Assembly: GCA_903927965.1 (NCBI GenBank)
Contig: CAIYPA010000305.1
Coordinates: 1-62,917 of the forward strand
Length of the DNA stretch: 62,917 nucleotides
Source of the DNA: an uncultured Bacteroidia bacterium
GTDB taxonomy: Bacteria; Bacteroidota; Bacteroidia; Bacteroidales; Prolixibacteraceae
Reading direction: 5' to 3'
Positions 1 to 20,847 of the stretch are shown one piece after another (position 1 is the first letter of the stretch; each line of letters starts with the position of its first letter). Below the pieces are notes generated by a model. It saw only the letters and a list, made by a program, of their open reading frames with translations. It did no database searches and was not told the origin of the DNA. Position numbers and translations under genes: made by a program.

Positions 1-2
1 AA

Positions 3-149
3 GGAAATGAAAAAATGTTGACATACTGGCGGAAAAAGATGGTGGACCACCTGAAAGAGCGTGGCGAAAACTGGGTGAAAGATGGGAAACTGGTGATTCA
101 AAAAGAGTCCGTCCAATTTGGGGCTAACCACCCGAAATTCAAAAAATAA
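3..149 (+). CDS. C-terminal fragment of a probable sulfatase
   Basis: An open frame enters from the left edge and stops at 147-149, leaving 48 codons. The visible tail is hydrophilic, with a WRKKM-DHLKERG-WV-GKL-ESV pattern ending in HPKFKK. This resembles the C-terminal strand-helix region of formylglycine-dependent arylsulfatases of polysaccharide-degrading Bacteroidota, but no catalytic motif lies in the window. An exported FAD oxidoreductase follows 24 bp downstream on the same strand, so the two may be co-transcribed. The family call is inference from a short tail; another hydrolase ending is possible. Confidence 0.45.
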   Translation, partial: GNEKMLTYWRKKMVDHLKERGENWVKDGKLVIQKESVQFGANHPKFKK

Positions 150-173
150 TACAATTCTTGTAATCTATTATAT

Positions 174-1862
174 ATGAGTAAATTAATATTGACAGCGAAT
201 AAGTTTTCTCTTTCTTTTATTTTGGTTATTTCACTATTTTTATTTGCAGGTTGCAATTCCTCAAAATCTATCCCGAACCTCAACTCAGCCGACATCATTG
301 TTTATGGAGGCACTTCGGCCGCAGTAATTGCTGCCGTTGAAGCTGTCCATTCGGGAAAAACAGTTTTGGTGGTTTCGCCTGATACGCACATTGGTGGGCT
401 TTCATCTGGTGGATTGGGTTATACCGATACCGGGAACAAATCATCCATCGGTGGACTTTCGCGTGAATTTTACCATCGTGTGTGGTTGCACTACAATGAT
501 TCATCAGCCTGGAACTGGCAGAAAAAATCGGAATATGGGAATAAAGGGCAGGGAACCATTGCCATGGATGGAGAAAACCGTACGATGTGGATTTTTGAGC
601 CACATGTTGCGGAGCAAGTTTTTGAAGACTTTATCCGTGATAACAAGATCACTGTTTTGCGCAACGAATGGCTGGATCGATCTAAAGGATTGGTAAAAAA
701 GGATGGCAGGATTATTTCCTTTAAAACCTTATCGGGAAAAACATTCTCGGGAAAGGTCTTTATCGATGCCACTTACGAAGGTGACCTGATGGCTGCTGCC
801 GGAGTTTCGTACCAGGTAGGACGTGAGGCATGTACTGTTTACGATGAAACGTGGAACGGTGTACAGGCCAATGTAAAGCATCATGGACACTATTTCAAAA
901 CCAACATCGACCCCTATAAAATCCCGGGCAAACCCGAAACTGGTTTGTTGTATGGCATTTCAAAGGAATCCATCGCCTCAAATTGCACAGGCGACAACAA
1001 GATCCAAGCCTATTGTTTTCGTTTGTGTATGAGCAACAATCCAGAAAATCGGGTTGCATTTCCAAAACCTGAAAATTATGATCCTGCAAAATATGAACTT
1101 TTGGTGCGTGTCTTCGATTCAGGTTGGCGCGAGTGGTTCGAAAAGTTCGACCTGATCCCCAATCGCAAGACTGACACCAACAACCATGGCCCATTCAGCA
1201 GCGATTTCATTGGGATGAACTACAATTACCCCGATGCATCCTACGAAAGAAGAAAAGAAATCATCAAAGAGCACGAAGACTATCAAAAAGGGCTTCTCTA
1301 TTTTGTCTCGAACGATTCCCATGTGCCCAAAGAGGTGCGCGAGGAAATGAACAATTGGGGCCTGGCCAAAGACGAGTTTACTGATAACGGGAATTGGTCC
1401 AGACAGTTGTATATCCGTGAAGCACGGCGAATGGTTGGTGTATCGGTGAGCAGCGAAAATGATGTACTGGCGAAACGTGAGGTTCAGCATCCGGTTGGAA
1501 TGGGTTCATATGCAATGGATTCGCACAATATCCAGCGCTATGTGACCTCTGAAGGTTTTGTCCAGAACGAAGGGGATGTTGGGGTAAGCCCAAAACATCC
1601 ATATGCGATTTCATATGGAGCCCTGGTCCCGAAAAAGGAGGAGTGTACCAATTTAATCGTCCCCGTCTGCCTTTCTTCGAGCCACATTGCATATGGTTCT
1701 ATCCGGATGGAGCCTGTCTTTATGATTCTAGGGCAATCTGCAGCATGTGCTGCGTCCATTGCGATCGATAAAAAACAAGCAGTTCAGGAGGTGGATTATG
1801 AAAATTTAAAAGATATTTTGATCCAACGCAAACAAGTTTTATCTGTATCTAAAATTGATTAA
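174..1862 (+). CDS. exported FAD-dependent oxidoreductase (FAD_oxidored family)
   Basis: This 562-residue protein has an N-terminal hydrophobic stretch ending in a lipobox-like LFAGC (about residues 22-26), so it is probably a lipoprotein. The dinucleotide-binding fold follows at once: strand, VYGGTSAA in place of the classic GxGxxG, then the acidic end VVSPDTHIGGLSSGG. This arrangement is typical of the FAD_oxidored family (PF12831), often found in polysaccharide utilisation loci. Further family-type segments are FIDATYEGDLMAAAG (about 197-211) and, near the C-terminus, ECTNLIVPVCLSSSHIAYG and GQSAACAA. The substrate is unknown; xanthan-lyase-like annotations of this family are not evidence of lyase activity. 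A Gfo/Idh/MocA gene follows 49 bp downstream. Confidence 0.85.
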   Translation: MSKLILTANKFSLSFILVISLFLFAGCNSSKSIPNLNSADIIVYGGTSAAVIAAVEAVHSGKTVLVVSPDTHIGGLSSGGLGYTDTGNKSSIGGLSREFYHRVWLHYNDSSAWNWQKKSEYGNKGQGTIAMDGENRTMWIFEPHVAEQVFEDFIRDNKITVLRNEWLDRSKGLVKKDGRIISFKTLSGKTFSGKVFIDATYEGDLMAAAGVSYQVGREACTVYDETWNGVQANVKHHGHYFKTNIDPYKIPGKPETGLLYGISKESIASNCTGDNKIQAYCFRLCMSNNPENRVAFPKPENYDPAKYELLVRVFDSGWREWFEKFDLIPNRKTDTNNHGPFSSDFIGMNYNYPDASYERRKEIIKEHEDYQKGLLYFVSNDSHVPKEVREEMNNWGLAKDEFTDNGNWSRQLYIREARRMVGVSVSSENDVLAKREVQHPVGMGSYAMDSHNIQRYVTSEGFVQNEGDVGVSPKHPYAISYGALVPKKEECTNLIVPVCLSSSHIAYGSIRMEPVFMILGQSAACAASIAIDKKQAVQEVDYENLKDILIQRKQVLSVSKID

Positions 1863-1911
1863 ATTTGTAGGATAGATTACCGCATGTAATAATCATACTA
1901 AAACTAAAATC

Positions 1912-3270
1912 ATGGATGACAGCATTTTAAAACCGATCAATCGAAGGGAATTCGTTCAAAGTTCAACCCTTGCAACGGCAGGTTTCACAATTGTTCCTGC
2001 ATTTGCTGTTTCAGGCCTGGGGCATACCGCCCCTAGCGACAAACTAAACGTTGCCGGTGTCGGTATTGCCGGGATGGGGAGGGGAAATCTGGCCAATGTG
2101 GCAAAGACAGAAAACATCGTTGCTCTGTGTGATGTTGACTGGGGAGAAGCTTCCGCAAAGGTGTTCAAGACTTATCCCAAAGCAAAACAGTACAAGGATT
2201 TCAGGATCATGCTGGATACCCAGAAAGACATTGATGGTGTGATCATTGCTACGCCCGATCATACACACGCCATTATCAGCCTCGAAGCCATGAAACGTGG
2301 GAAGCATGTTTATACGCAAAAACCATTAACACATACAGTCCATGAGGCTAGGGTCTTAACTGAAGCCGCAAAAAAATACAAGGTCGCTACCCAAATGGGA
2401 AACCAGGGCCAGGCTGGTGAAGGCCCCCGGCGATTGAGGGAAATGATCTGGGACGGCGTGATCGGCCCTATCCGCGAAGTCCATGTCTGGACCGACCGCC
2501 CAAACAATGGCCTGTTTAAAACCTACTGGCCGCAAGGGGTTGCCCGTCCCGAAGCGACACCCCCGGTTCCTGAAACGTTGGATTGGGACTTATTTATCGG
2601 ACCAGCACCAATGAGGCCATACAATCCTGCATATCATCCATTTAAGTGGCGTGGCTGGTGGGATCTTGGAACAGGTGCCCTTGGCGATATTGGTTGCCAT
2701 TCGTTGGATCCGATTTTCCGGGCATTGAAACTTAAATATCCAACAAGCCTCCAGGCAGTTTCGACACTTGTAAATAGTGAAACATATCCATCTGGTTCTA
2801 TCGTACGCTACGAATTTCCGGCTCGTGAAAATATGCCACCTGTAACCCTTACATGGTATGACGGAGGACTACGCCCAATGCGGATTCCCGAATTGGACGA
2901 AGGGATGCAGATGGGTCCTGGTGGTACTTTGTATGTTGGCGACAAAGGCAAAATCCTTGATGACAAAATTATTCCAAAATCGTTGCGTGATTCCTATAAA
3001 GCACCTGTGCCATATCTTCCATCTTCGCCTGGTCATGAAGAGGAGTGGATCCGTGCCTGCAAAGGTGGCCTTCCTGGGGGTTCCAATTTCGACTGGGCAG
3101 GCCCGCTCACAGAAACAGTCCTTTTGGGCAATATCGCGATCCGCAACGACCTCAAGGAAAAATTAAGCGGCCAATCACTGCTCTGGGATCCCGAGAAATT
3201 TGGTTTCCCGAACTTCCCCGAAGCGGATAAATTCCTCAAAACTGAATATCGTAGTGGCTGGAGTTTGTAA
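1912..3270 (+). CDS. Gfo/Idh/MocA family oxidoreductase, Tat-type signal
   Basis: The 452-residue product starts with a twin-arginine stretch (NRREFVQSS, residues 10-18) and a hydrophobic segment, consistent with Tat export. The Rossmann core has VGIAGMGRGNL, the CDVDW acidic strand end, and IATPDHTHA. The usual EKP motif reads QKP (YTQKPLTH), so the lysine is kept and the glutamate replaced. A GDIGCHSLD segment supplies the C-terminal active-site histidine region. Family members are NAD(P)-dependent sugar oxidoreductases. The likely promoter -7 element TAAATTTG (1860-1867) overlaps the stop codon of the preceding gene. The substrate cannot be told from sequence. Confidence 0.88.
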   Translation: MDDSILKPINRREFVQSSTLATAGFTIVPAFAVSGLGHTAPSDKLNVAGVGIAGMGRGNLANVAKTENIVALCDVDWGEASAKVFKTYPKAKQYKDFRIMLDTQKDIDGVIIATPDHTHAIISLEAMKRGKHVYTQKPLTHTVHEARVLTEAAKKYKVATQMGNQGQAGEGPRRLREMIWDGVIGPIREVHVWTDRPNNGLFKTYWPQGVARPEATPPVPETLDWDLFIGPAPMRPYNPAYHPFKWRGWWDLGTGALGDIGCHSLDPIFRALKLKYPTSLQAVSTLVNSETYPSGSIVRYEFPARENMPPVTLTWYDGGLRPMRIPELDEGMQMGPGGTLYVGDKGKILDDKIIPKSLRDSYKAPVPYLPSSPGHEEEWIRACKGGLPGGSNFDWAGPLTETVLLGNIAIRNDLKEKLSGQSLLWDPEKFGFPNFPEADKFLKTEYRSGWSL

Positions 3271-3426
3271 AAGAGGCAGTCCAAAAAGCATCTTTAACGC
3301 AAAGTACGCCAAGGTTTCGCAAAGGTACGCAAAGATAAAATACTATGATTTAATACTTTGCGATCCTTTGCGAAGTTAACTTTGCGGACCTTTGCGGTAA
3401 TATTCTGACTTTTTAGACAATCTCTT
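3271..3426. repeat. MITE-like intergenic inverted-repeat element
   Basis: A 156-bp element starts directly after the Gfo/Idh/MocA stop codon. Imperfect 18-bp terminal inverted repeats lie at 3271-3288 (AAGAGGCAGTCCAAAAAG) and 3409-3426 (CTTTTTAGACAATCTCTT), matching at 14 of 18 positions. Inside, a second inverted repeat is built from CGCAAAGG-type units: 3297-3334 pairs with 3357-3398 around a 22-nt loop. It contains no ORF. It could act as a terminator for the upstream gene or be a non-autonomous mobile element; no target-site duplication was identified. Confidence 0.7.
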
Positions 3427-3504
3427 TGTGTTGCTGGTTGGTTGGCAATGCAAAGTCCTTTTATTTTGGGTGCGTTTGATTCTTTGAGTGATATGAGGGC
3501 AATG

Positions 3505-3936
3505 TTACCGCTCTGCCTTTGATAAGTCTAAATGATTTTCAATAAATTCTTTGAGTTCTCCCATTTTGTCAATTTGGGAAACGCGCCTGATCCGGTTGTT
3601 TTTCAGTTTGATATCCAGAAATTCATTGTTAAACCTATGTTTCACTTTTATCGATTTCACCTCCTTTAAGTCGATTTCACTCTTCACTGACCGAAATAGT
3701 GTCCCAACAATCACAATACCATGACCTAATCCAATGATTAATCCCGTCCAAAGTAGAAATTCATCACCCGTTTTTAAATACCTAAATACCGACAGAACTC
3801 CATAAAGGATCCACATACCTGAAATAAAAAGTGTATATCGACTCTTCTTTTGGGCATTGTCTGTAATCGTAATCTTGTCCCCTTCGAATTTGAGATCGCC
3901 TCTTTCAAGATGGAATGTCTGCTTGGGAATGTTCAT
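3505..3936 (-). CDS. small two-TM membrane protein of unknown function
   Basis: The 143-residue protein is not recognised. It has a polar N-terminus, two predicted membrane helices (about 34-54 and 61-81) joined by a short loop, and a basic C-terminal domain with alternating beta-strand pattern (KSEIDLKEVKSIKVKHRF, about 85-102) and a final helix. The layout resembles small bacterial PH-like membrane proteins, but that is only an impression. It lies 33 bp after the HAD gene on the same strand and is the last gene of the operon beginning at 10483. The region is AT-rich like the rest of that operon. Confidence 0.7.
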   Translation of the reverse strand: MNIPKQTFHLERGDLKFEGDKITITDNAQKKSRYTLFISGMWILYGVLSVFRYLKTGDEFLLWTGLIIGLGHGIVIVGTLFRSVKSEIDLKEVKSIKVKHRFNNEFLDIKLKNNRIRRVSQIDKMGELKEFIENHLDLSKAER

Positions 3937-3969
3937 TTTTAAGTATTTTGTCAGTTGTAAAAGTAATAT

Positions 3970-5415
3970 TTAGTCCGGTATTGACTCTTTTGGATAACTT
4001 GAACCAATACCAGAAAATCGTTCCAATTCATTGTCATCCAAGGCTTCCATGATTTCATCAAGTTCATTCACAAGGATATTAGTCCATTTCTTGGCCGATT
4101 CGTCATTTCTGTGAATCAAAGTGATAAACGTATAGAGTATTTGTAATTCTTCGGTTGACAGTTTGTTTTCAGTAAATGTGTTCTTGATTTTTCCGTTAAT
4201 TTTTTCAGAGAACCACTTCTCCTTGAAAAGCTTAATCGCGTTTTTCTGTGGAAAATCATTCTGTGGATTTAACCGTTCCCATCGTTTCAACTCGCTTTTT
4301 ACATTTTTGTTAAATAGGGATAAAACCAATGAAGTGGCCTCTGGTCCAGACTTGGGATTTGGAATAATAACACGTGATTTAAATGGAACATGCTTAGGAA
4401 TTTTATTTACAGCCAAAACCAAAACTCCGTCTATTTTAGTTAAAGGAAAATCATTGCCACCTCCGCTTAATACTTCATCACCCATATAAATAACATTTGA
4501 TCCAAATTTCTCTCCTTTTCGCTCGTTTCCTTCAATCCCCAAGTGATCTACCAAAAACCGTATTGCATAAGCCTTATTTATTTTTGATTTTGTAACATCG
4601 ATGCTACTGTTTCCTCCAGCACTTGCTGTATAACTTGTTAAGCCCAAAAGGTCAAATCTTTCATGAATACGGTCTATAAGATTCTTTCGAATATCTGCAT
4701 TAATTTTCTTTCCAGGCTCAACTGCATATTTCCAACTTAATACTGGTTTCAGGGTAATCTGAACCGTACTTTTTGGCCTGTCTTCAAAATACAGATAACG
4801 GATATCTACATGGTCTGAACCATCCAAAGCAATATTAATAGGATATTGAACAGATTCACTGTCTTTCTCTGGTTCTTTATCGATATAATATTCAGCTTTA
4901 TATTGCATTATATTGTTCTCTAAATTCGAAAGATAGTCGTTCCATACTATTTCAAGTACTTCTTTGATTTTTTCAATATCAGATGTATTTATTTCTGTTC
5001 TATCAAGATACGACTTGAAAATAAATTTTGATTTAATACTATTCGGGTTTTCCAAGTCAAAAAACTGCTGACCAGGACCCTCATTTTTAAGTAATTTCAA
5101 ATCTTCGTCATTAATATGAAAATAGACTCCGCCGGAATTACAGAAAAAATGGAATTTGCTTAATACTTCGATTTTTGATTTCCTTACCAAATAATTAAAA
5201 AGAAATCGAAAAAACCTTGAGGATATTTCACCAAAACTATTTCCGGTTACCACAGCTATGTTTGTACCTGCCAAGGCAATTTTTAATAATTCAGGGGCTA
5301 CATTCAATACAAAATCGCCCTCTTCACTCTTGGAACCTACGTTTAATAAAGTTTTATCGATATCGGAAGCGATAAGGCAGGTACTTGTAATAAATTTTTT
5401 TGCATCTGAGTACAT
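3970..5415 (-). CDS. HAD-superfamily protein, phosphomannomutase/Cof-like (class IIB)
   Basis: About 481 residues from the chosen start at 5415; an in-frame start at 5487 would add 24 residues, but the HAD fold begins soon after the later ATG. Motif I is SDIDKTLL, motif II VVTGNS. A conserved lysine region follows SAGGNSSIDVTKSKINK, and motif IV reads GDEVLSGGGNDFPLT, strikingly like the GDK-GGND segment of eukaryote-type phosphomannomutases and sucrose-phosphatase-like HADs. A helical extension of roughly 110 residues has no recognised domain. It probably hydrolyses or transfers a phosphate on a small molecule; the substrate is unknown. It sits 118 bp after the coiled-coil NTPase gene (46 bp with the longer start), which suggests a role in the same operon. 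Confidence 0.75.
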   Translation of the reverse strand: MYSDAKKFITSTCLIASDIDKTLLNVGSKSEEGDFVLNVAPELLKIALAGTNIAVVTGNSFGEISSRFFRFLFNYLVRKSKIEVLSKFHFFCNSGGVYFHINDEDLKLLKNEGPGQQFFDLENPNSIKSKFIFKSYLDRTEINTSDIEKIKEVLEIVWNDYLSNLENNIMQYKAEYYIDKEPEKDSESVQYPINIALDGSDHVDIRYLYFEDRPKSTVQITLKPVLSWKYAVEPGKKINADIRKNLIDRIHERFDLLGLTSYTASAGGNSSIDVTKSKINKAYAIRFLVDHLGIEGNERKGEKFGSNVIYMGDEVLSGGGNDFPLTKIDGVLVLAVNKIPKHVPFKSRVIIPNPKSGPEATSLVLSLFNKNVKSELKRWERLNPQNDFPQKNAIKLFKEKWFSEKINGKIKNTFTENKLSTEELQILYTFITLIHRNDESAKKWTNILVNELDEIMEALDDNELERFSGIGSSYPKESIPD

Positions 5416-5533
5416 GAAATTATTTTTTATTGCTTTAACAATTAATAATTTGGTGAATTTATTCCTTTCAATAAAGCTTATCAACAACCATAAACATTTA
5501 AATATTTCTGTTTATTTGACCGGAAATACTATT

Positions 5534-6868
5534 CTATGCTTTGAAGTGCGTTAAATAGTCGGCAAAGGCTTCCCCGAGTACTTTGTAATGTCCATCAACC
5601 TTCTCTATAAATCCATAATTTTCAAGACGTTCTAAAGTACGAGGAAAGCATGTATTTGATAATTTTTTGCTCACTTTAACCAAAGAACCTATTTCTTCAT
5701 CTTTCAATTGTTTTAATTGTTTAATAAAGCGATTTTCCATAGAAGTAATAAACTCATTTTTCATTTGCATACACCCCTCATGACCAGTTAAACCTTTTTT
5801 ATGCAGATCATATAGTAATGAGGATGCTTTTTGAATATTATATGGCATTTTCCCCGCAACCTTGATTATGAAATCAATATCTTCATTTTCAAATTGATGG
5901 CAAAAACGCGTAGCTGGCTCTTTGATAAGATTGCGAGCATCTTGATCTGATAACGGCCCCAAATAATGAAATTCCGTAAAAATATTTGCAAATGGAGAAG
6001 TGAACGTTTTTGACTGTTCAATATTTTCAAAAGCTGAAATAATAAAGGCTATGTTGCCGGTTAATACTAGTGATCTCAATGCCCCAAAAAACTTCTCATC
6101 CAAGTTGGGATTATTTGTTAGATAAGTAAAATCATCCAAAAGTATAAGAAAACCCCATTGTTTATTACTTAATTGCTCAATTGAATTACTAAGGGTTTCA
6201 AACGGGATCCAGTTTGGAACGTTAGGAGAACCTTGTGTATTTTTGTTGCGCTTTTCTAAATTTTTAAACATTTCACGCAGCAAATAGGCATAAAAATTCT
6301 CAGGACTAATGAATTGAGCTCTTGCATCAATATATACTGGAATAATTTTTGACATTTGTCTCAAAACTGAGTATTCTAAAAAATGCAAAAAAGACGTTTT
6401 TCCTGATCTTTTAACTCCCAGAATCTGTACTGACTGCATTTGCACACCATATGCACAACTAATAACTGATTGCAAAATATCTTTGCGACCATAGAATAAA
6501 TCAGGCTGATTAACGTGTATGCCGATTAAAAATGGATTACCAAAATCAACATTTAATTTATCATTTAATTCAGCAGGTGACGGGAGATCCTTAAGCCATC
6601 CATTCATTCGTTCTACAACCGTAATAAACTTTTCATTGAACTCTTTCAAGTCAATTTCTATTCTGTGCCTTATTTCTTCCCCTTTTAGACGGATATCTTC
6701 GTCTTTCTGTGCTAATGTCCTGTGGATTTCTTCATCTTTTAGACGGATTTCTTCATCCCTCCGTTTAAGGGTTTGTCTCATTGATCTTTCTTGCAACAAC
6801 CAGCCAATTACAGTTGTTAAAATTGCAAAAATCGAACCATACTGTTTAATTACTTCTAAAATATTCAT
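5534..6868 (-). CDS. membrane-anchored coiled-coil P-loop NTPase (STAND/AAA_16-like)
   Basis: The 444-residue protein begins with a hydrophobic helix (about 9-26). A highly charged coiled coil (about 27-95) follows, made of repeated RLKDEEI/RLKGEEI-type segments. The NTPase domain starts near NQPDLFYGRKDIL; Walker A is GVKRSGKTS (about 151-159) and Walker B LILLDDF (about 242-248). The C-terminus looks like a winged helix (FPRTLERLENYGFIEK). Such R-D-rich ATPases belong to the STAND/Archaeal_ATPase group, which acts in signalling and defence. The gene starts 33 bp after the triple-GAF NTPase gene, whose ATPase core is a divergent relative. No effector enzyme domain is visible, so the output is unknown. 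Confidence 0.82.
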   Translation of the reverse strand: MNILEVIKQYGSIFAILTTVIGWLLQERSMRQTLKRRDEEIRLKDEEIHRTLAQKDEDIRLKGEEIRHRIEIDLKEFNEKFITVVERMNGWLKDLPSPAELNDKLNVDFGNPFLIGIHVNQPDLFYGRKDILQSVISCAYGVQMQSVQILGVKRSGKTSFLHFLEYSVLRQMSKIIPVYIDARAQFISPENFYAYLLREMFKNLEKRNKNTQGSPNVPNWIPFETLSNSIEQLSNKQWGFLILLDDFTYLTNNPNLDEKFFGALRSLVLTGNIAFIISAFENIEQSKTFTSPFANIFTEFHYLGPLSDQDARNLIKEPATRFCHQFENEDIDFIIKVAGKMPYNIQKASSLLYDLHKKGLTGHEGCMQMKNEFITSMENRFIKQLKQLKDEEIGSLVKVSKKLSNTCFPRTLERLENYGFIEKVDGHYKVLGEAFADYLTHFKA

Positions 6869-6901
6869 TGATTTATATTTAATTGATTTTCTATTCCTTA
6901 G

Positions 6902-9900
6902 CTATTTCTCATGTTGTTCCTCTGGAAAATTCTTGTAAATCCAGAGTGAAAACAACATAATCGTATGAGAGTATTTACACTCATTATCTCTTTCTATTAG
7001 CCTTCGCTTGCTTAATCGTTTAATTGTATCCCAAACTTCCATCTCAGTAAAAGAAGTAAGTTGAGCAACTAAATCAGAAGTTGACATTTTATTTTGTTTT
7101 GAATGGTTTTCAATAGCAAGAAGATATAAGATGGCCTTTTCATGTTTATGACATTCGTTCCAAAGGTTGTTTAAAAAAAAGTGTCGCTCACAAATTATTT
7201 TTTGAATAACATTACCCACATGACCTTTTGCAATATAATTCCCATCGCCCCTCTTATTCATATCTCTGATCAGCTCATTACACAAATACTGAATTAAATA
7301 CGGATGGCCATGTGTATATTGCCATAATTCTTCCACTGCTGCATCTTCGAAGCCGACCAACCCTGCTATTGGCTGGCGGATAAGGTTTTCCGAATCTTCT
7401 TTACTTAAATAGCTTACTTCGTGAATTAATGCTATACTTTGCACCAATCCTCTATATTCAGTTGACAGTTCCTCCAATTCGTGAGATCCGGAAAAAATGA
7501 TTGTCAAGTTTTGTAAGTGTTGCATCAAATATCGGAGTTGTTCATAAATCTTTTTATCCAAGGACTTTAACACCATTCTGTCAAGTTGTTCGAATTCATC
7601 GATCATCAACACAAGCAACTTATTACCCAATTGCAAACAAATTTTATAAATGTATTCCTGAAAAGTACCAAAAGGAGATTCTCTGAAAGAAGATAAATGG
7701 GGAACTATAATTTCACGAATCAATAAGGGATTTTGTGATATGACCTCCTTGGTAATCACTTTGCACAGTCCATGCAAAAAATTACAAGTCTCCCAATCGT
7801 TCAAACCTTGTAAATCAATATAGACAGGACATGTTGGCCGTTCAGGGTTGTTTCGAAATGTTTCACCCAATTTACCTTTCTCCAATTGCAACAGGATAGA
7901 TGTCTTCCCAATACGTCGTTCGCCATGAAAAACAAGAATGTTTTTTTGGGTCGCACCATGCAAATTTTCTGTTACCCATTCGAATACATCGCGCCGGCCA
8001 AAAAATGGGCTTTTTGTGGGATCAATAGGAACACCAACGATGTAAGGGCTTTCAATTCTGGTAAAATCATCTTCGGTATTTTTTATTATGGTTAACCATC
8101 TATTTATAATTCTTGACATGATTCCCATTTCAGGAGGAGTGAGGTTCTGAGTACGAGTTTTGGCATTTTCCAAATGAATTCGAACGTTTTCTAAAGAATT
8201 CCGAGTAACTGCTTCCCCTTGAAGATCGTGTTTTACTTGTCCAATTAATTCAATGAATAAATCCGTAGGCTTAGCAAGAAAAAACTGAGGTCCTAATTGA
8301 ACATCTATTCTCAATGTTGAATGAGAACAGAAATTGGCCAAACCCTCAACTCCAATTAAGCTTAAAGCCCTTGAAAATTCAACGTACAAGCGCCCCATTG
8401 CACGGCCACCTTCAAGAAAATCACCAAATTGACTTACCAAATTTGGAATCCCATCCAAGTATCGTTCTAAAAAATCTGGTTGGAGCAACGAAGCATAATT
8501 CTCAACAATCTTGGCAATATCACCTTTTTCACCTTTGAGCAATTTGGCAACTTGATTTAGTGTCTCAACGGCAGGGGTATTGTTTTTTACAAATTTATGC
8601 AAATCGGGTAAGACACTGTTACTGTGTGCAAGAATCTGTTCTGCAAAACGTCGCGACTCGGATAATCTGGCATTTTCGATCGCAATTGCAACACTTTTCG
8701 CGATCAAATCAAACACTAGCTCATCCTGTTCATTAAAATAGGTGTATTCTTCGTTGCGATCAACTATCTTCTTTTTCGATTCCACTTTTAACACACCAAG
8801 CAGTTCGTCACCAACAACCAACGGCACACCCATAAACGATTCACACTGTTCTCCTAACTTTTTATCGAAGTTGAAATTGTCATAAACTCCCTTGTGGTGT
8901 GGATGCAGCCTCAATTCGGTATTGCTCCGTGCAGTAAACTTTTTCTGTTTGACCGCAATCCATACAGTAAGCCCTATTTTTTCATCTTGCTTAGGATTTT
9001 CGATAATTTCATCTGGTCTTACCAAATAATATTCTCTTCGTTTGCCGGGCAAATTTTTAGAATAACCAACCGCAGCCCAATCCGGTTGGATCAACATATT
9101 TCCCTCTTTTAAAAACAATGCGCAAGCTCTAGCTTGTAGCAATTCCATTGTTTTATTTACCACCGTACTAACAAGTGCCTCAACATCCTGATTTCCGCGC
9201 AAGATCTGAAAAATAGTTTTCTGGGCGTTGATAATGACCTGATATGGATCAGTAGCATGTTGCTGCAAGCGTACTATCGCCAAGGCAATATCCTGGGCCA
9301 ACACATCAAAACGTCGATGAGCCTCCTTGTCGAATTCACGTAAATCGGGTTTCCCTATATAAGATATATTTTCAACTTTTAAAGTACCTACAATATCCCC
9401 ACCTACTTGTAAAGGTACGCCTAAAAAAGCACCGCATATTTCATTTCCTGTTTTAAAATTGTGAGGATCATATTCACCACGGTGGTGGGGATGGATATGT
9501 AAAACTTCAAAATTTGGGGCATAATAAGATTTACCCGTGGCTGCAATCCAGGCCGTAAGTCCCACCTTTTCACAATCTTTGGAGGGAATTATAGGAATAT
9601 TCTCCTTTTTGGGTAATAAATAAGACCTTATAACAGACTTGGTTTTTTGAGAACCAGTTCCTGCACGCTGTGTCAGCGTATTTTTATCTGGATCTGTCAG
9701 GAAAATGCCACACGAATCGGCATGCATTGCAGATGCAACAACATTGACAACAAGGCTTAAAAAGCCATCCAAATCACTTTCAGTGATAGAGGCTTCGGAA
9801 ATCACATCGCGAGCCCAGGCGGTGATGGCAGAATTAACATTTCGGGTTCGGGCTGTTTTTAAATAATTTAGTGATTTACTCGTGACACGGGCTATAGTTT

Positions 9901-10483
9901 CAAGGACGATTTGTTCTTCTACTGAAAAAACTAAGGTTGTTGATGATTGGTCACAACGTCTCTCAGCCTTTAGGGCACCAATAATCTCCCCATGTATTCC
10001 GCGGATCGGAACCCCCAAAAATGTCTTTAAACTTAATCGGCTATCAGGAGACATTTCAGGGTCATGGGTACCCAATCGATGCGGATGTTTGATAACCTCT
10101 TCAGTTGTTCTTGCCAGAAAAGATTTGCCGGTTGAAAGAATCCATCCTGTAATCCCAAGTCGTTTATCAAATATAGGAGGATTTTCATCGACCTCATCAT
10201 CTGGAACGACTTCACATTTTGCCTTACCAATAAATTGTCGTTGGTAACCATCCCCGGCACATTGTGTCGCTGTTTTCCTATCTTCGTCCACAATATAAAT
10301 GGAGCAAGCACTCGCCTGTAGGATAATTTGCACCTGTTCGGCAATGTATTGCAATACTTCATCCCTGTTTAATTGGGGTGAAAGAGTACGTAAAAAATGG
10401 CATTGTATGTCGGCAGAATGTTTCTGTGCAGAAAGTTTTTCAGTTGTCATATTTTCGGAATTAAATGATTGGTCAGTTTTCAA
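6902..10483 (-). CDS. triple-GAF sensor fused to STAND-like NTPase
   Basis: A 1193-residue protein. Three GAF domains span roughly 28-205, 220-400 and 420-620. Each carries a GLT/GITxWI segment and an HPHxxGxxD motif near residues 134, 331 and 526, a regular spacing of about 196. A helical linker (about 620-815) leads to an NTPase with Walker A GERRIGKTS (about 853-861) and Walker B LVLMIDEFEQLD (about 957-968). The C-terminal ~80 residues look like a winged helix. GAF domains bind small molecules such as cyclic nucleotides, and the STAND fold suggests a ligand-gated switch. It is the first gene of an operon and has a well-formed promoter at 10522-10553. Ligand and output are unknown. Confidence 0.85.
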   Translation of the reverse strand: MKTDQSFNSENMTTEKLSAQKHSADIQCHFLRTLSPQLNRDEVLQYIAEQVQIILQASACSIYIVDEDRKTATQCAGDGYQRQFIGKAKCEVVPDDEVDENPPIFDKRLGITGWILSTGKSFLARTTEEVIKHPHRLGTHDPEMSPDSRLSLKTFLGVPIRGIHGEIIGALKAERRCDQSSTTLVFSVEEQIVLETIARVTSKSLNYLKTARTRNVNSAITAWARDVISEASITESDLDGFLSLVVNVVASAMHADSCGIFLTDPDKNTLTQRAGTGSQKTKSVIRSYLLPKKENIPIIPSKDCEKVGLTAWIAATGKSYYAPNFEVLHIHPHHRGEYDPHNFKTGNEICGAFLGVPLQVGGDIVGTLKVENISYIGKPDLREFDKEAHRRFDVLAQDIALAIVRLQQHATDPYQVIINAQKTIFQILRGNQDVEALVSTVVNKTMELLQARACALFLKEGNMLIQPDWAAVGYSKNLPGKRREYYLVRPDEIIENPKQDEKIGLTVWIAVKQKKFTARSNTELRLHPHHKGVYDNFNFDKKLGEQCESFMGVPLVVGDELLGVLKVESKKKIVDRNEEYTYFNEQDELVFDLIAKSVAIAIENARLSESRRFAEQILAHSNSVLPDLHKFVKNNTPAVETLNQVAKLLKGEKGDIAKIVENYASLLQPDFLERYLDGIPNLVSQFGDFLEGGRAMGRLYVEFSRALSLIGVEGLANFCSHSTLRIDVQLGPQFFLAKPTDLFIELIGQVKHDLQGEAVTRNSLENVRIHLENAKTRTQNLTPPEMGIMSRIINRWLTIIKNTEDDFTRIESPYIVGVPIDPTKSPFFGRRDVFEWVTENLHGATQKNILVFHGERRIGKTSILLQLEKGKLGETFRNNPERPTCPVYIDLQGLNDWETCNFLHGLCKVITKEVISQNPLLIREIIVPHLSSFRESPFGTFQEYIYKICLQLGNKLLVLMIDEFEQLDRMVLKSLDKKIYEQLRYLMQHLQNLTIIFSGSHELEELSTEYRGLVQSIALIHEVSYLSKEDSENLIRQPIAGLVGFEDAAVEELWQYTHGHPYLIQYLCNELIRDMNKRGDGNYIAKGHVGNVIQKIICERHFFLNNLWNECHKHEKAILYLLAIENHSKQNKMSTSDLVAQLTSFTEMEVWDTIKRLSKRRLIERDNECKYSHTIMLFSLWIYKNFPEEQHEK

Positions 10484-10521
10484 ATGTGAGCAAACGTATT
10501 CGCTTTAAATTTAGCGCTTTC

Positions 10522-10553
10522 CAAAAGTAAATTAAACAATAATTAAATGCAAA
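10522..10553 (-). promoter_or_regulatory. Bacteroidota-type promoter of the GAF-NTPase operon
   Basis: Read on the minus strand, TTTG (10553-10550), a 20-nt spacer, and TACTTTTG (10529-10522) match the Bacteroidota consensus TTTG / TAnnTTTG. The ATG at 10483 lies about 38 nt downstream, giving a short leader. No operator is evident. Confidence 0.65.
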
Positions 10554-10860
10554 TAGAATGAACTATTTTTTGGTGCCATGGACATTAAAAAAAATAATAA
10601 ATAAAGTAGGTCAATATGCTGCTATACTGTTAGCTATTAGATAAATAGATCATTTCAATTATTTGTTCTATGATTATAACAAATTTTACAGATTTTCATC
10701 AAATCCATCCGTGCCATCTTGTCAGAGTTGCGTGTCAGTAAAATACAGGGCTTAAAGGTCTGTAATACAATTAAATAAAGATAGATTTATTTTGTAGTGG
10801 AATTTTCTTGTGCAAAAATGTCCTGTCTCCGGGTCAAAACAGGTCATTTCCATTTCTGGC
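10554..10860. other. AT-rich intergenic region, nothing coding seen
   Basis: The stretch between the divergent GAF-NTPase and groES promoters holds only short ORFs with no family resemblance. No CIRCE (TTAGCACTC-N9-GAGTGCTAA) or tRNA-like fold was found. A segment near 10690-10740 (CAGATTTTCATCAAATCC, CCGTGCCATC) looks like a decayed dispersed repeat. Confidence 0.5.
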
Positions 10861-10871
10861 ATATTTTCTGA

Positions 10872-10879
10872 TAGGTTTG
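10872..10879 (+). promoter_or_regulatory. -7 element upstream of groES-groEL
   Basis: TAGGTTTG fits TAnnTTTG and lies 46 nt before the groES ATG. The -33 region (TTTCCA, about 10847-10852) is only a weak match. No CIRCE operator is visible, so heat-shock control by HrcA is not supported from sequence. Confidence 0.5.
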
Positions 10880-10924
10880 CGCTACAACGATAAAATTATT
10901 GTCTAATTATAAATAAAATTCGAA

Positions 10925-11203
10925 ATGGCAGAACTTAAAGGAAAGATCCTTGCCGGCAAAGTATTGGTAGAGCCGAAGCAAGCAGTTACAAAAACAGCAG
11001 GTGGAATCATCATCCCTGACTCAGCGAAAGAAAAACCCCTTGCAGGTACAGTTGTACTGGTAGGAATTGCAAAAAAAGACGAAACAGTTGAAGTAAAGGT
11101 TGGAGATACCGTTTTCTACGGAAAATATTCAGGAACCGAATTGACAATCGAAGGCAACGACTATCTTCTGATTTCACAATCTGATGTTCTTTTCATCGCT
11201 TAG
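10925..11203 (+). CDS. groS: co-chaperonin GroES
   Basis: The 92-residue protein has the full Cpn10 fold. The mobile-loop region reads TKTAGGIIIPDSAKEKP (about 21-37), and the VGDTVFYGKYSGTE and C-terminal YLLISQSDVLFIA segments are family-typical. It forms the heptameric lid of GroEL in the cytoplasm. groEL follows 49 bp downstream, the usual two-gene operon. Length equals that of typical bacterial GroES (90-97). Some Bacteroidota place groES elsewhere with extensions; here it is canonical. Confidence 0.97.
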   Translation: MAELKGKILAGKVLVEPKQAVTKTAGGIIIPDSAKEKPLAGTVVLVGIAKKDETVEVKVGDTVFYGKYSGTELTIEGNDYLLISQSDVLFIA

Positions 11204-11249
11204 TTAACTGATTAATTTATTGATTATTACAATTATTTAAAAACATTGA

Positions 11250-12890
<1,641 letters not shown>

Positions 12891-12936
12891 TCCATAAACC
12901 CAATATATAAATCAGCCTTTTTAAGGTTGAATCATT

Positions 12937-12967
12937 AAAACCGACAGGAATTCCTGCCGGTTTTTTT
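12937..12967 (+). terminator. Rho-independent terminator of groES-groEL
   Basis: AAACCGACAGGAA pairs with TTCCTGCCGGTTT (one A-C mismatch), followed by seven T residues. It lies 47 nt after the groEL stop and just before the mntP promoter. Confidence 0.88.
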
Positions 12968-12987
12968 ATTACTCAATGGAAGAATTT

Positions 12988-12995
12988 TATCTTTG
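12988..12995 (+). promoter_or_regulatory. -7 element of mntP
   Basis: TATCTTTG fits TAnnTTTG and lies 16 nt before the ATG at 13012. Transcription from it would begin downstream of the alternative ATG at 12976, which argues that 13012 is the real start. Confidence 0.5.
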
Positions 12996-13011
12996 CAGCT
13001 CAAAATTTTTC

Positions 13012-19494: not shown

Positions 19495-20847
19495 GTGTCG
19501 AAAGCTAAAACCACTTTTGTTTGTCAGATTTGCGGAATTCAATCCCCAAAATGGATTGGGAAATGTACTTCATGCGGTGAATGGAATTCTTTTGTGGAGG
19601 AGGTTGTTGTAGAAAGAAAAAATACAAATTCCCTTGTAAAAGGAAACCTGAAACCATTGCTCTTGTCGGAAATTGATCTTGATAAACAATCCAGGATTGT
19701 TACAGGGAACGATGAATTCGATAGGGTTATCGGAGGTGGTATCGTACCGGGTGGGTTGATCCTATTGGGAGGCGAGCCTGGTATAGGCAAATCGACTCTT
19801 GTTCTTCAGATTGCCTTGCAGATGACACAATTGAAAGTCCTTTACATTTCAGGAGAAGAAAGTTTGCAACAATTAAAGATGAGGGCTATCCGGTTAGAAG
19901 GGAAACAATCGGGGTGCTTGTTTTTATGCGAAACATTACTTGAAACGATCCTGGCCCACATCGAGCGTGAAAAACCCGACCTTGTCATTATCGATTCCAT
20001 ACAGACAGTTGCGACAGAAATGGCTGAATCATCACCTGGTAGTGTAACCCAGATCAGGGAATGTACTGTTGGGATTATGAAGGTTGCCAAATTAAACCAG
20101 ATTGCAGTCATCTTAATCGGACACATTAACAAGGAAGGAAGCATTGCCGGCCCAAAAGTTCTGGAACATATAGTAGATACAGTGCTTCAATTTGAAGGGG
20201 ACCGGAACTATCTTTTTCGGATCCTGCGTTCCGTAAAAAACCGTTTTGGGTCAACCTCAGAATTGGGGATTTTCGAAATGCGACAGGATGGGCTTCATGA
20301 AGTTGTCAACCCATCGGAAATGCTTTTGTCATCACATAATGATGGACTGAGTGGTACAGCTACCGCAGCGACAATGGAGGGATTACGTTCATTTCTGATC
20401 GAAGTACAAGCCTTGGTAAGCTCGGCTGCTTATGGCAATCCACAACGGTCGGCAACCGGTTTTGACCTGCGACGGATGAACATGCTGCTGGCAGTTCTTG
20501 AGAAAAGGGCGGGCTTTAAATTGATGACCAAAGATGTATTTTTGAATATTGCAGGTGGCTTACGTGTGGATGATCCTGCAATGGACCTTGGCGTAATAGC
20601 AGCCATTCTATCATCTAATTTTGATGTGGCCATTAATAAACAGATTGCCTTTGCCGGAGAAGTCGGATTGACTGGAGAAATAAGACCGGTAAACCGGATC
20701 GAGCAACGGATAGCTGAAGCCCAAAAACTTGGTTTCAAAGAGATTTACCTTTCAAAATACAACAAAGGAGTTGATTTTTCACGGTTTGAGATAAAAATCC
20801 ATCAGATCGACAGGGTGGAAAAAATGATCAGGACACTGTTTTCATAA
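19495..20847 (+). CDS. radA: DNA repair protein RadA/Sms
   Basis: 450 residues from a GTG start at 19495. A four-cysteine zinc finger opens the protein (CQICG..GKCTSCGEW, about 10-29). The RecA-like core has Walker A GGEPGIGKST (about 91-100), and the RadA-specific KNRFG motif is present (about 248). The C-terminal part is a Lon-like domain (GGLRVDDPAMDLGVIAAILS; GEVGLTGEIRPV). It promotes branch migration in homologous recombination. It lies 86 bp after panD and ends in a bidirectional terminator shared with gldN. Confidence 0.96.
   Translation: MSKAKTTFVCQICGIQSPKWIGKCTSCGEWNSFVEEVVVERKNTNSLVKGNLKPLLLSEIDLDKQSRIVTGNDEFDRVIGGGIVPGGLILLGGEPGIGKSTLVLQIALQMTQLKVLYISGEESLQQLKMRAIRLEGKQSGCLFLCETLLETILAHIEREKPDLVIIDSIQTVATEMAESSPGSVTQIRECTVGIMKVAKLNQIAVILIGHINKEGSIAGPKVLEHIVDTVLQFEGDRNYLFRILRSVKNRFGSTSELGIFEMRQDGLHEVVNPSEMLLSSHNDGLSGTATAATMEGLRSFLIEVQALVSSAAYGNPQRSATGFDLRRMNMLLAVLEKRAGFKLMTKDVFLNIAGGLRVDDPAMDLGVIAAILSSNFDVAINKQIAFAGEVGLTGEIRPVNRIEQRIAEAQKLGFKEIYLSKYNKGVDFSRFEIKIHQIDRVEKMIRTLFS

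Follow-up and report, generated by a model that had tools for sequence, protein, structure and literature searches.

The four-gene block and its two NTPases

The stretch analysed here, referred to as the window, is the entire contig CAIYPA010000305.1 (C305; 62,917 nucleotides), which belongs to the 7.57-Mb, 584-contig genome of an uncultured Prolixibacteraceae bacterium. It contains a block of four minus-strand open reading frames (ORFs) that encode two STAND-like nucleoside triphosphatases (NTPases A and B), a HAD-IIB protein and a small protein with two putative transmembrane segments (2TM protein; Table 1). Each NTPase represents one of two related classes whose members occur in pairs, and this pairing is the central result of our analysis. 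Coordinates and strand of the four ORFs, as well as the 33-bp gap between the NTPase genes, were confirmed as given in a first-pass annotation made from the DNA sequence alone. Based on the longest ORFs, the gaps between B and HAD and between HAD and 2TM measure 46 and 33 bp, respectively; the former becomes 118 bp if the HAD gene begins at its first ATG (5415).

Protein A carries three GAF stretches (Pfam, 1.9e-35) at about residues 40-620, followed by a linker and an ATPase module at about residues 830-1070, which matches AAA_22 (1.6e-8) and, below threshold, ATPase_2. Its Walker A (GERRIGKTS) and Walker B (VLMIDEFEQL) motifs are both intact. The C-terminal end shows weak matches to winged helix-turn-helix (wHTH) domains and probably folds as one. 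The listed start codon is TTG, with an alternative ATG 11 codons further in. Protein B matches ATPase_2, nSTAND1 and nSTAND2 in Pfam at 1e-6 to 1e-4, each under the curated cut-off. Its N-terminus consists of one hydrophobic stretch, identified by eye, and a coiled coil; in a low-confidence predicted model (predicted local distance difference test, pLDDT, 55.6) residues 3-93 form one long helix. The Walker A motif is kept (GVKRSGKTS), the Walker B motif (ILLDDF) has an aspartate where a glutamate is usual, and the protein contains the class B motif SPFANIF. The ATPases of A and B are homologues that share 26% identity (E 8.5e-12). Hidden Markov models (HMMs) built without the window placed them in different classes: protein A scored 308.5 bits with class A vs 94.9 with class B, and protein B 174.8 bits with class B vs 107.0 with class A. 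PADLOC returned two weak matches for B (0.0045 and 0.01) and none for the A, HAD or 2TM proteins.

Table 1 Features of the four-gene block and its upstream side. Positions refer to the window.
Feature	Position	Strand	Length	Remark
A-class STAND-like NTPase	6902-10483	-	1193 aa	
B-class STAND-like NTPase	5534-6868	-	444 aa	
HAD-IIB protein	3970-5487	-	505 aa	
Two-TM (2TM) protein	3505-3936	-	143 aa	
Candidate Bacteroidota-type promoter TTTG-N20-TACTTTTG	10522-10553	-		Upstream of A gene; 10/10 to the consensus
Left edge of homology to groES side, closest same-genus genome	10811	.		secG side on contig C488

Pairing of the two NTPase classes in other genomes

To place the two NTPases among their relatives, we surveyed 201 genomes of the phylum to which a metagenome-assembled genome deposited as Chloroflexi belongs, using an E-value threshold of 1e-6 and scoring up to three candidates per genome. 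Matches to A were found at no fewer than 37 places in 25 of the 201 genomes. Thirty of these, from 22 genomes, include the ATPase module of A, five are limited to a GAF domain and two are themselves partners of other matches. The surroundings of all 30 ATPase places were scored with profiles of class A (20 sequences) and class B (14 sequences), which included the window's own proteins. A close NTPase partner was present at 27 of the 30 places, and 26 of the 27 partners scored higher with the B profile; the partner in L165 prefers the A profile (124 vs 101 bits). The three partnerless A genes (L167, L181 and L243) begin within 10 bases of the contig start. Among ten loci fetched after the profiles had been built, nine contained a partner. 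The gaps between the longest ORFs of A and B are mostly short or overlapping, with 723 bp in L176, and the genes are divergent in L168, L170 and L172. The proposal that the two NTPases of the window belong together is therefore supported by a regular neighbourhood in this phylum.

Pairs outside this phylum comprise that of the window and a related pair with an 11-bp gap in a same-genus genome (L033). Its B gene was missed by the single-sequence search and found by the profile, and its large protein runs on into repeats and a GTPase-like region, as judged by eye. A set of 30 loci, comprising L033 and 29 loci with A genes from the Chloroflexi-deposited phylum (495,215 bases), contained beyond the A genes and their partners just two weak profile matches (22.9 and 21.9 bits). 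No match to either profile was detected in 107 other loci around HAD, groEL and 2TM genes (1,517,616 bases, not phylum-matched). With the B protein as query, just the window's own two genes are recovered from the 140 family genomes, while partial A relatives, nearly all restricted to the ATPase region, occur in 22 other genomes. A search of 296 genomes of the phylum gave partial A relatives in 10 other genomes. Tblastn against plasmids gave no match for HAD or B, two Acinetobacter matches to the ATPase region of A, and one Deinococcus match when a B relative was used as the query. Scans of viral contigs found neither A nor B.

It is conceivable that the window contains two unrelated NTPase genes brought together by chance in a genomic island. 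Some genomes have many STAND-like ATPases, the junction at which the block is situated has been rearranged (see below), and stand-alone relatives are present in the window's phylum. However, we consider this highly improbable given that 27 of the 30 A places have a close NTPase partner and the other three are found at contig ends, that other matches are confined to two weak ones in the same loci and zero in 1.52 Mb of other loci, and that profiles built without the window still assign its proteins to A and B.

The two classes are also visible in the phylogeny of 47 ATPase domains, in which a branch with support of 96/95 separates 22 A sequences (and one stand-alone ATPase) from 20 B sequences (and four stand-alone ATPases). 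Furthermore, across 20 pairs the identity distances among the A proteins covary with those among the B proteins (Mantel r 0.72), with 0 of 10,000 permutations reaching a value as high. The motifs GxxRxGK and DE are kept in all 22 A sequences. Of the 20 B sequences, one has lost the Walker A lysine and four, including that of the window, are without the Walker B glutamate. An arginine between Walker B and the following strand is conserved in the alignments of both classes, including the window's A and B; its position would suit an arginine finger, and we regard this role as putative. A motif resembling SPFxNIF is common to the B proteins, and A is without it.

The HAD and 2TM genes and the origin of the block

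The HAD protein matches Hydrolase_3 above the cut-off (2.7e-5) and the Pfam family PMM below it (1.1e-3; 19.3 bits, cut-off 22.4). The motifs DIDKT, SIDVTKxxINKAY and GDxxxxGGND are kept, whereas insertions and a C-terminal extension are unmatched in relatives. A model built from 25 sequences (pLDDT 62.8, low confidence) resembled in Foldseek the atypical alpha-phosphoglucomutase 4bnd (E 2.1e-8), the Plasmodium inosine monophosphate (IMP)-nucleotidase ISN1 (6rm- entries; 6rn1, E 6.8e-8) and the eukaryotic-type phosphomannomutase PMM2, with 12-17% identity and template modelling scores of about 0.3-0.4 over the whole query among the listed matches. It differs from all three by its extra insertions and C-terminal extension. 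Judged by its sequence, the protein has a PMM-like HAD-IIB core of a broad family, and it may be an enzymatic effector or remove a phosphorylated metabolite. A first scan of genome contigs with the HAD sequence alone gave no match; a genome-contig scan yielded 362 relatives in many phyla, of which the best 80 were all partial matches and had no A or B homologue in their loci. In two Bacteroidota loci, relatives of the HAD core adjoin genes resembling mannose-6-phosphate isomerase and GH130 (by eye). Viral contigs scanned with the HAD alignment A1 contained one HAD-core locus. A match in G404 (L006) was rejected as due to chance, as it sits in a 708-aa protein that by eye is NERD/helicase-like.

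The 2TM protein shows two hydrophobic stretches by eye and has no Pfam match. Sequence similarity assigns it to a resident family, which occurs in 14 of the 140 genomes of the window's family, the window's own included. Its relatives in the 13 other genomes often stand in tandem, and runs of two to four copies of this family of about 140 aa were seen in L229, L230 and L224 (G030, G028 and G031). Ten regions around these relatives, from 10 of the 13 other genomes, contained no HAD or NTPase homologue. Conversely, tblastn at E 1 detected neither a HAD nor a 2TM homologue within the 30 loci that carry an A gene, that of the L033 pair among them. As HAD and 2TM homologues are missing from these 30 loci, and A and B homologues from the 80 HAD loci and the ten 2TM regions, HAD and 2TM are probably local neighbours or additions and not part of a conserved core. 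The first-pass annotation had proposed a module of four parts, which would be contradicted by rare adjacency of these genes in relatives. This idea holds up for the NTPase pair, which recurs, and fails for HAD and 2TM, which never appear beside it in the 30 loci.

The HAD and 2TM genes are possibly co-transcribed. Concerning the consensus promoter described before the block, sigma-70-like sites were dropped as evidence, as 32 were observed vs 33.6 expected by chance in positions 1-13000. The promoter consensus of Bacteroidota is TTTG-N20-TAnnTTTG, and a candidate identical to it at 10 of 10 positions precedes the A gene at 10553-10522. A second match (9/10) lies beside this site, with a background of 0.24 per 450 nt at nine or more matching positions. 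No promoter of this type was detected in the scanned A-B, B-HAD and HAD-2TM gaps, the gene interiors being mostly outside the scan. Just behind the operon, the repeats CGCAAAG and CTTTGCG cluster in both orientations at 3298-3396 (7 of the 18 copies in the window); this cluster may act as a terminator or represent a repeat element.

The shared strand, the short gaps and the lack of a promoter candidate in the B-HAD and HAD-2TM gaps would fit a true four-gene system, with HAD as effector or signal-remover and 2TM as its membrane partner. So would the lowest GC content of the window, which HAD and B have in common, and the HAD phosphatases found in other defence operons (PMC13092281). We nonetheless regard such a system as unlikely, since no homologue of either gene was detected at E 1 in the 30 A-gene loci, the 2TM family occurs in 14 of 140 family genomes with no HAD or NTPase homologue in the ten regions fetched, and the HAD relatives are partial only.

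The block as a whole has a GC content of 36.2% vs 41.7% in the remaining window, in agreement with the AT-richness noted previously. This is mainly seen in HAD (33.1%, z -2.9) and B (33.5%, z -2.8) when compared with 38 other ORFs, and these two have the lowest values among the window's ORFs of at least 150 aa. The A gene is only mildly low (38.8%, z -1.1), and the GC content at third codon positions of the 2TM gene is ordinary.

The block is flanked by a convergent oxidoreductase-like gene (1912-3270, named by eye) and by the divergent groES-groEL genes (10925-12890). All 15 same-genus loci examined have four genes in front of groES-groEL, the last of which encodes a SecG-like protein of 108-128 aa (named by eye). 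Tblastn confirmed all four genes in these 15 loci and in a locus from a different genus of the family; contig C488, which is part of the window's own genome, also carries all four. There, homology to the closest relative stops within a few bases of the stop codon of the SecG-like gene (L208 4272). Together with the homology edge on the groES side (Table 1), this reveals that an insertion or a rearrangement has disrupted the secG-groES neighbourhood in this genome. Beyond the SecG-like gene, C488 carries new genes, among them ORFs of 1593, 1447 and 1379 aa. The broken site, the low GC content of HAD and B and the lack of close B or HAD relatives in the genus support the earlier suggestion of a later acquisition, which we consider likely for the block.

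Sensor-like domains on A and outputs on B

Pfam scans of 16 of the 30 A proteins and 21 of the 27 partners revealed an exchange of additional domains among the relatives in each class. The A proteins, some with two extra domains, carry TPR (5), FG-GAP or Reg_prop propellers (5), TGS (3), HEAT (2), an FGE-sulfatase domain (1) and a sub-threshold GAF (1). One HEAT-bearing protein also has NACHT, and the A protein of L234 shows nothing further in Pfam. FGE domains of other STAND systems are interpreted as antigen sensors of the lectin type (PMC10907252). Among the partners, 13 of 21 have an extra domain: Trans_reg_C (6), HEPN_Swt1 (3), EAD10 (2), CHAT (1) or a protein kinase (1). Both EAD10 matches are under the cut-off, and one of these partners also has NNH2. 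PADLOC, applied to eight partners, recognised PDC-S54 at the C-terminus of the L171 partner and a helix-turn-helix (HTH) at the N-terminus of that in L174. From this distribution of domains we infer that A may sense and B may act. In L235, L236 and L237 (G631, G575 and G619), A bears TGS, accompanied in one locus by HD_4 and in a second by RelA_SpoT, and B ends in Trans_reg_C; these loci possibly represent a version of the pair linked to the alarmone ppGpp.

A mobile two-gene operon with an nSTAND2 STAND module in both genes, predicted as a counter-invader system, has been described by Kaur et al. 2021 (PMC8195603). There, the NTP-binding motifs of one partner are eroded, both proteins have a conserved arginine finger, and the eroded partner carries a fused effector; GT4 and HEPN are the commonest, so that no single effector strictly defines the operon. 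The window resembles it in that adjacent genes each have a STAND NTPase module. In the wider set studied here, some pairs have a damaged NTP-binding motif in one partner, the conserved arginine of both classes may correspond to the arginine finger, and HEPN lies on the B-type partner in 3 of the 21 scanned relatives. PF20702 (nSTAND2) matches the window's B with 21.9 bits (E 1.2e-4, cut-off 24) and does not match A at E 1, and several B homologues match clearly, for example in L164 with 2.5e-23. Unlike that operon, most B proteins here keep both motifs, and the window contains no GT4 or HEPN. The GAF domains on A and the membrane anchor on B go unmentioned in the section on that operon. In the open-access literature searched, the name nSTAND2 occurs in PMC8195603 and otherwise in one unrelated chemistry paper. 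We found no description there of the wider A/B class with its range of sensors, part of which may be held in the figure or source data of Kaur et al. 2021. Thus, the view that no described system has this composition has to be amended, as a two-gene STAND operon had already been predicted, one that fits the window in outline only. The A/B class resembles and widens this prediction.

Single-protein STAND immune receptors such as Avs and the bacterial NACHT proteins also use a STAND ATPase as a switch between sensor and output. In contrast to these, sensor and output are here divided between two NTPases. In plant sensor-helper NLR pairs, two NTPases are encoded together, one sensing and the other providing the output; the likeness is by analogy only, and the domains differ.

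Altogether, we propose that the core of the block is a pair of STAND NTPases in which A would sense and the membrane-bound B would relay, the likeliest role being that of an immune or stress alarm, and we assign this reading a probability of roughly 55%. The GAF domains of A would detect a small ligand, whereby the ATPase of A would be freed to exchange its nucleotide. A could then assemble with the membrane-anchored B into a hetero-oligomer, and B, with its aspartate in place of the Walker B glutamate, would pass the signal on at the membrane. The immune aspect draws on the HEPN, CHAT, kinase and weak EAD matches among the partners and on the published nSTAND2 prediction. The signalling or defence-like role suggested in the first-pass annotation is supported for the NTPase pair and not for a four-part set.

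Several observations weigh against this proposal. In the phylogeny, A as an exclusive group is weakly supported (56/0), and the B sequences of L033 and L165 form long branches outside the main B group in an unresolved fork with stand-alone ATPases, so that class B needs two label changes. The L165 partner, which scores 101 bits with B vs 124 with A, was assigned to the B set by hand, and that of L033 belongs weakly to class B (70 vs 58 bits). As 13 partners had been used in building the B profile, these are not independent tests, and shared host descent may explain part of the co-variation. With 15 of the 20 B proteins keeping both Walker motifs, motif erosion is not general in this class. The two genes of L172 are separated by one ORF, and in L242 the matched ORFs are about 1.4 kb apart and the A frame is broken by a stop.

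Similarly, the pairs seen outside the Chloroflexi-deposited phylum are those of the window and L033 only, and A relatives in the window's phylum are mostly stand-alone ATPases. Twenty-five stand-alone ORFs of 234-410 aa, seen on short loci, lack a neighbouring second match to A or B, and their scores are intermediate (56-105 bits with the A profile, 28-97 with the B profile). One of them (L036) is unpaired within the 16 kb viewed, and an A-like ORF in G048 (L034:2749-5415, 154 bits) has no B partner on its 5.7-kb contig. This ORF has an open frame of 962 aa, or 888 aa from a TTG, and a long extra C-terminal region. No match to Pfam nSTAND2 was obtained in 395 genomes from the window's phylum, but this search also missed the window and the controls. 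Finally, Pfam recognises no effector domain in the window's B, which has a hydrophobic segment and a coiled coil only, and no defence gene was detected in 10 neighbouring ORFs scanned (out of 43 beyond the block with 100 aa or more), save a weak mad8 match; the same 10 of 43 ORFs revealed no defence island. The mad8 match (PADLOC, 1.1e-7) belongs to a 450-aa protein at 19495-20847.

STAND ATPases such as MalT act as ordinary signal-transduction switches. The pair could accordingly be such a switch, in which metabolite or envelope sensing leads to gene regulation or a membrane response, without an immune function. The transcription-factor domain Trans_reg_C at the end of 6 of the 21 scanned partners, which fits ordinary regulation and also counts against the immune alarm, is the basis of this alternative. 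The A proteins with Reg_prop/Y_Y_Y, HD, TGS or RelA_SpoT resemble metabolic or stress sensors, and the ten neighbouring ORFs show no clear defence gene. However, partners of the same kind carry HEPN, CHAT and kinase outputs as well as weak EAD10 matches, and the related published operon has been predicted as a counter-invader system (PMC8195603). We therefore regard an ordinary switch as possible and less probable than the sensor-output alarm.

More tentatively, it may be speculated that the pair belongs to a widespread modular STAND relay. In such a relay, the sensors on A would be exchangeable (GAF, lectin-like, propeller or RelA/SpoT-like), as would the outputs on B (HEPN, CHAT, kinase, transcription factor or membrane anchor). 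Here, a GAF-gated A and a membrane B would have been joined by a PMM/ISN1-like HAD protein, recruited as an effector that depletes a metabolite, and the relay would be a bacterial counterpart of sensor-helper receptor pairs.

If the sensor-output reading of the pair is true, receptor and executioner would be split over two co-evolving STAND ATPases, with sensor and output parts freely swapped, and a testable general rule would follow, namely that A senses and B acts. It would also widen a family that we otherwise found described as a computational prediction only, and it would offer a compact pair for a direct test of hetero-oligomer formation.

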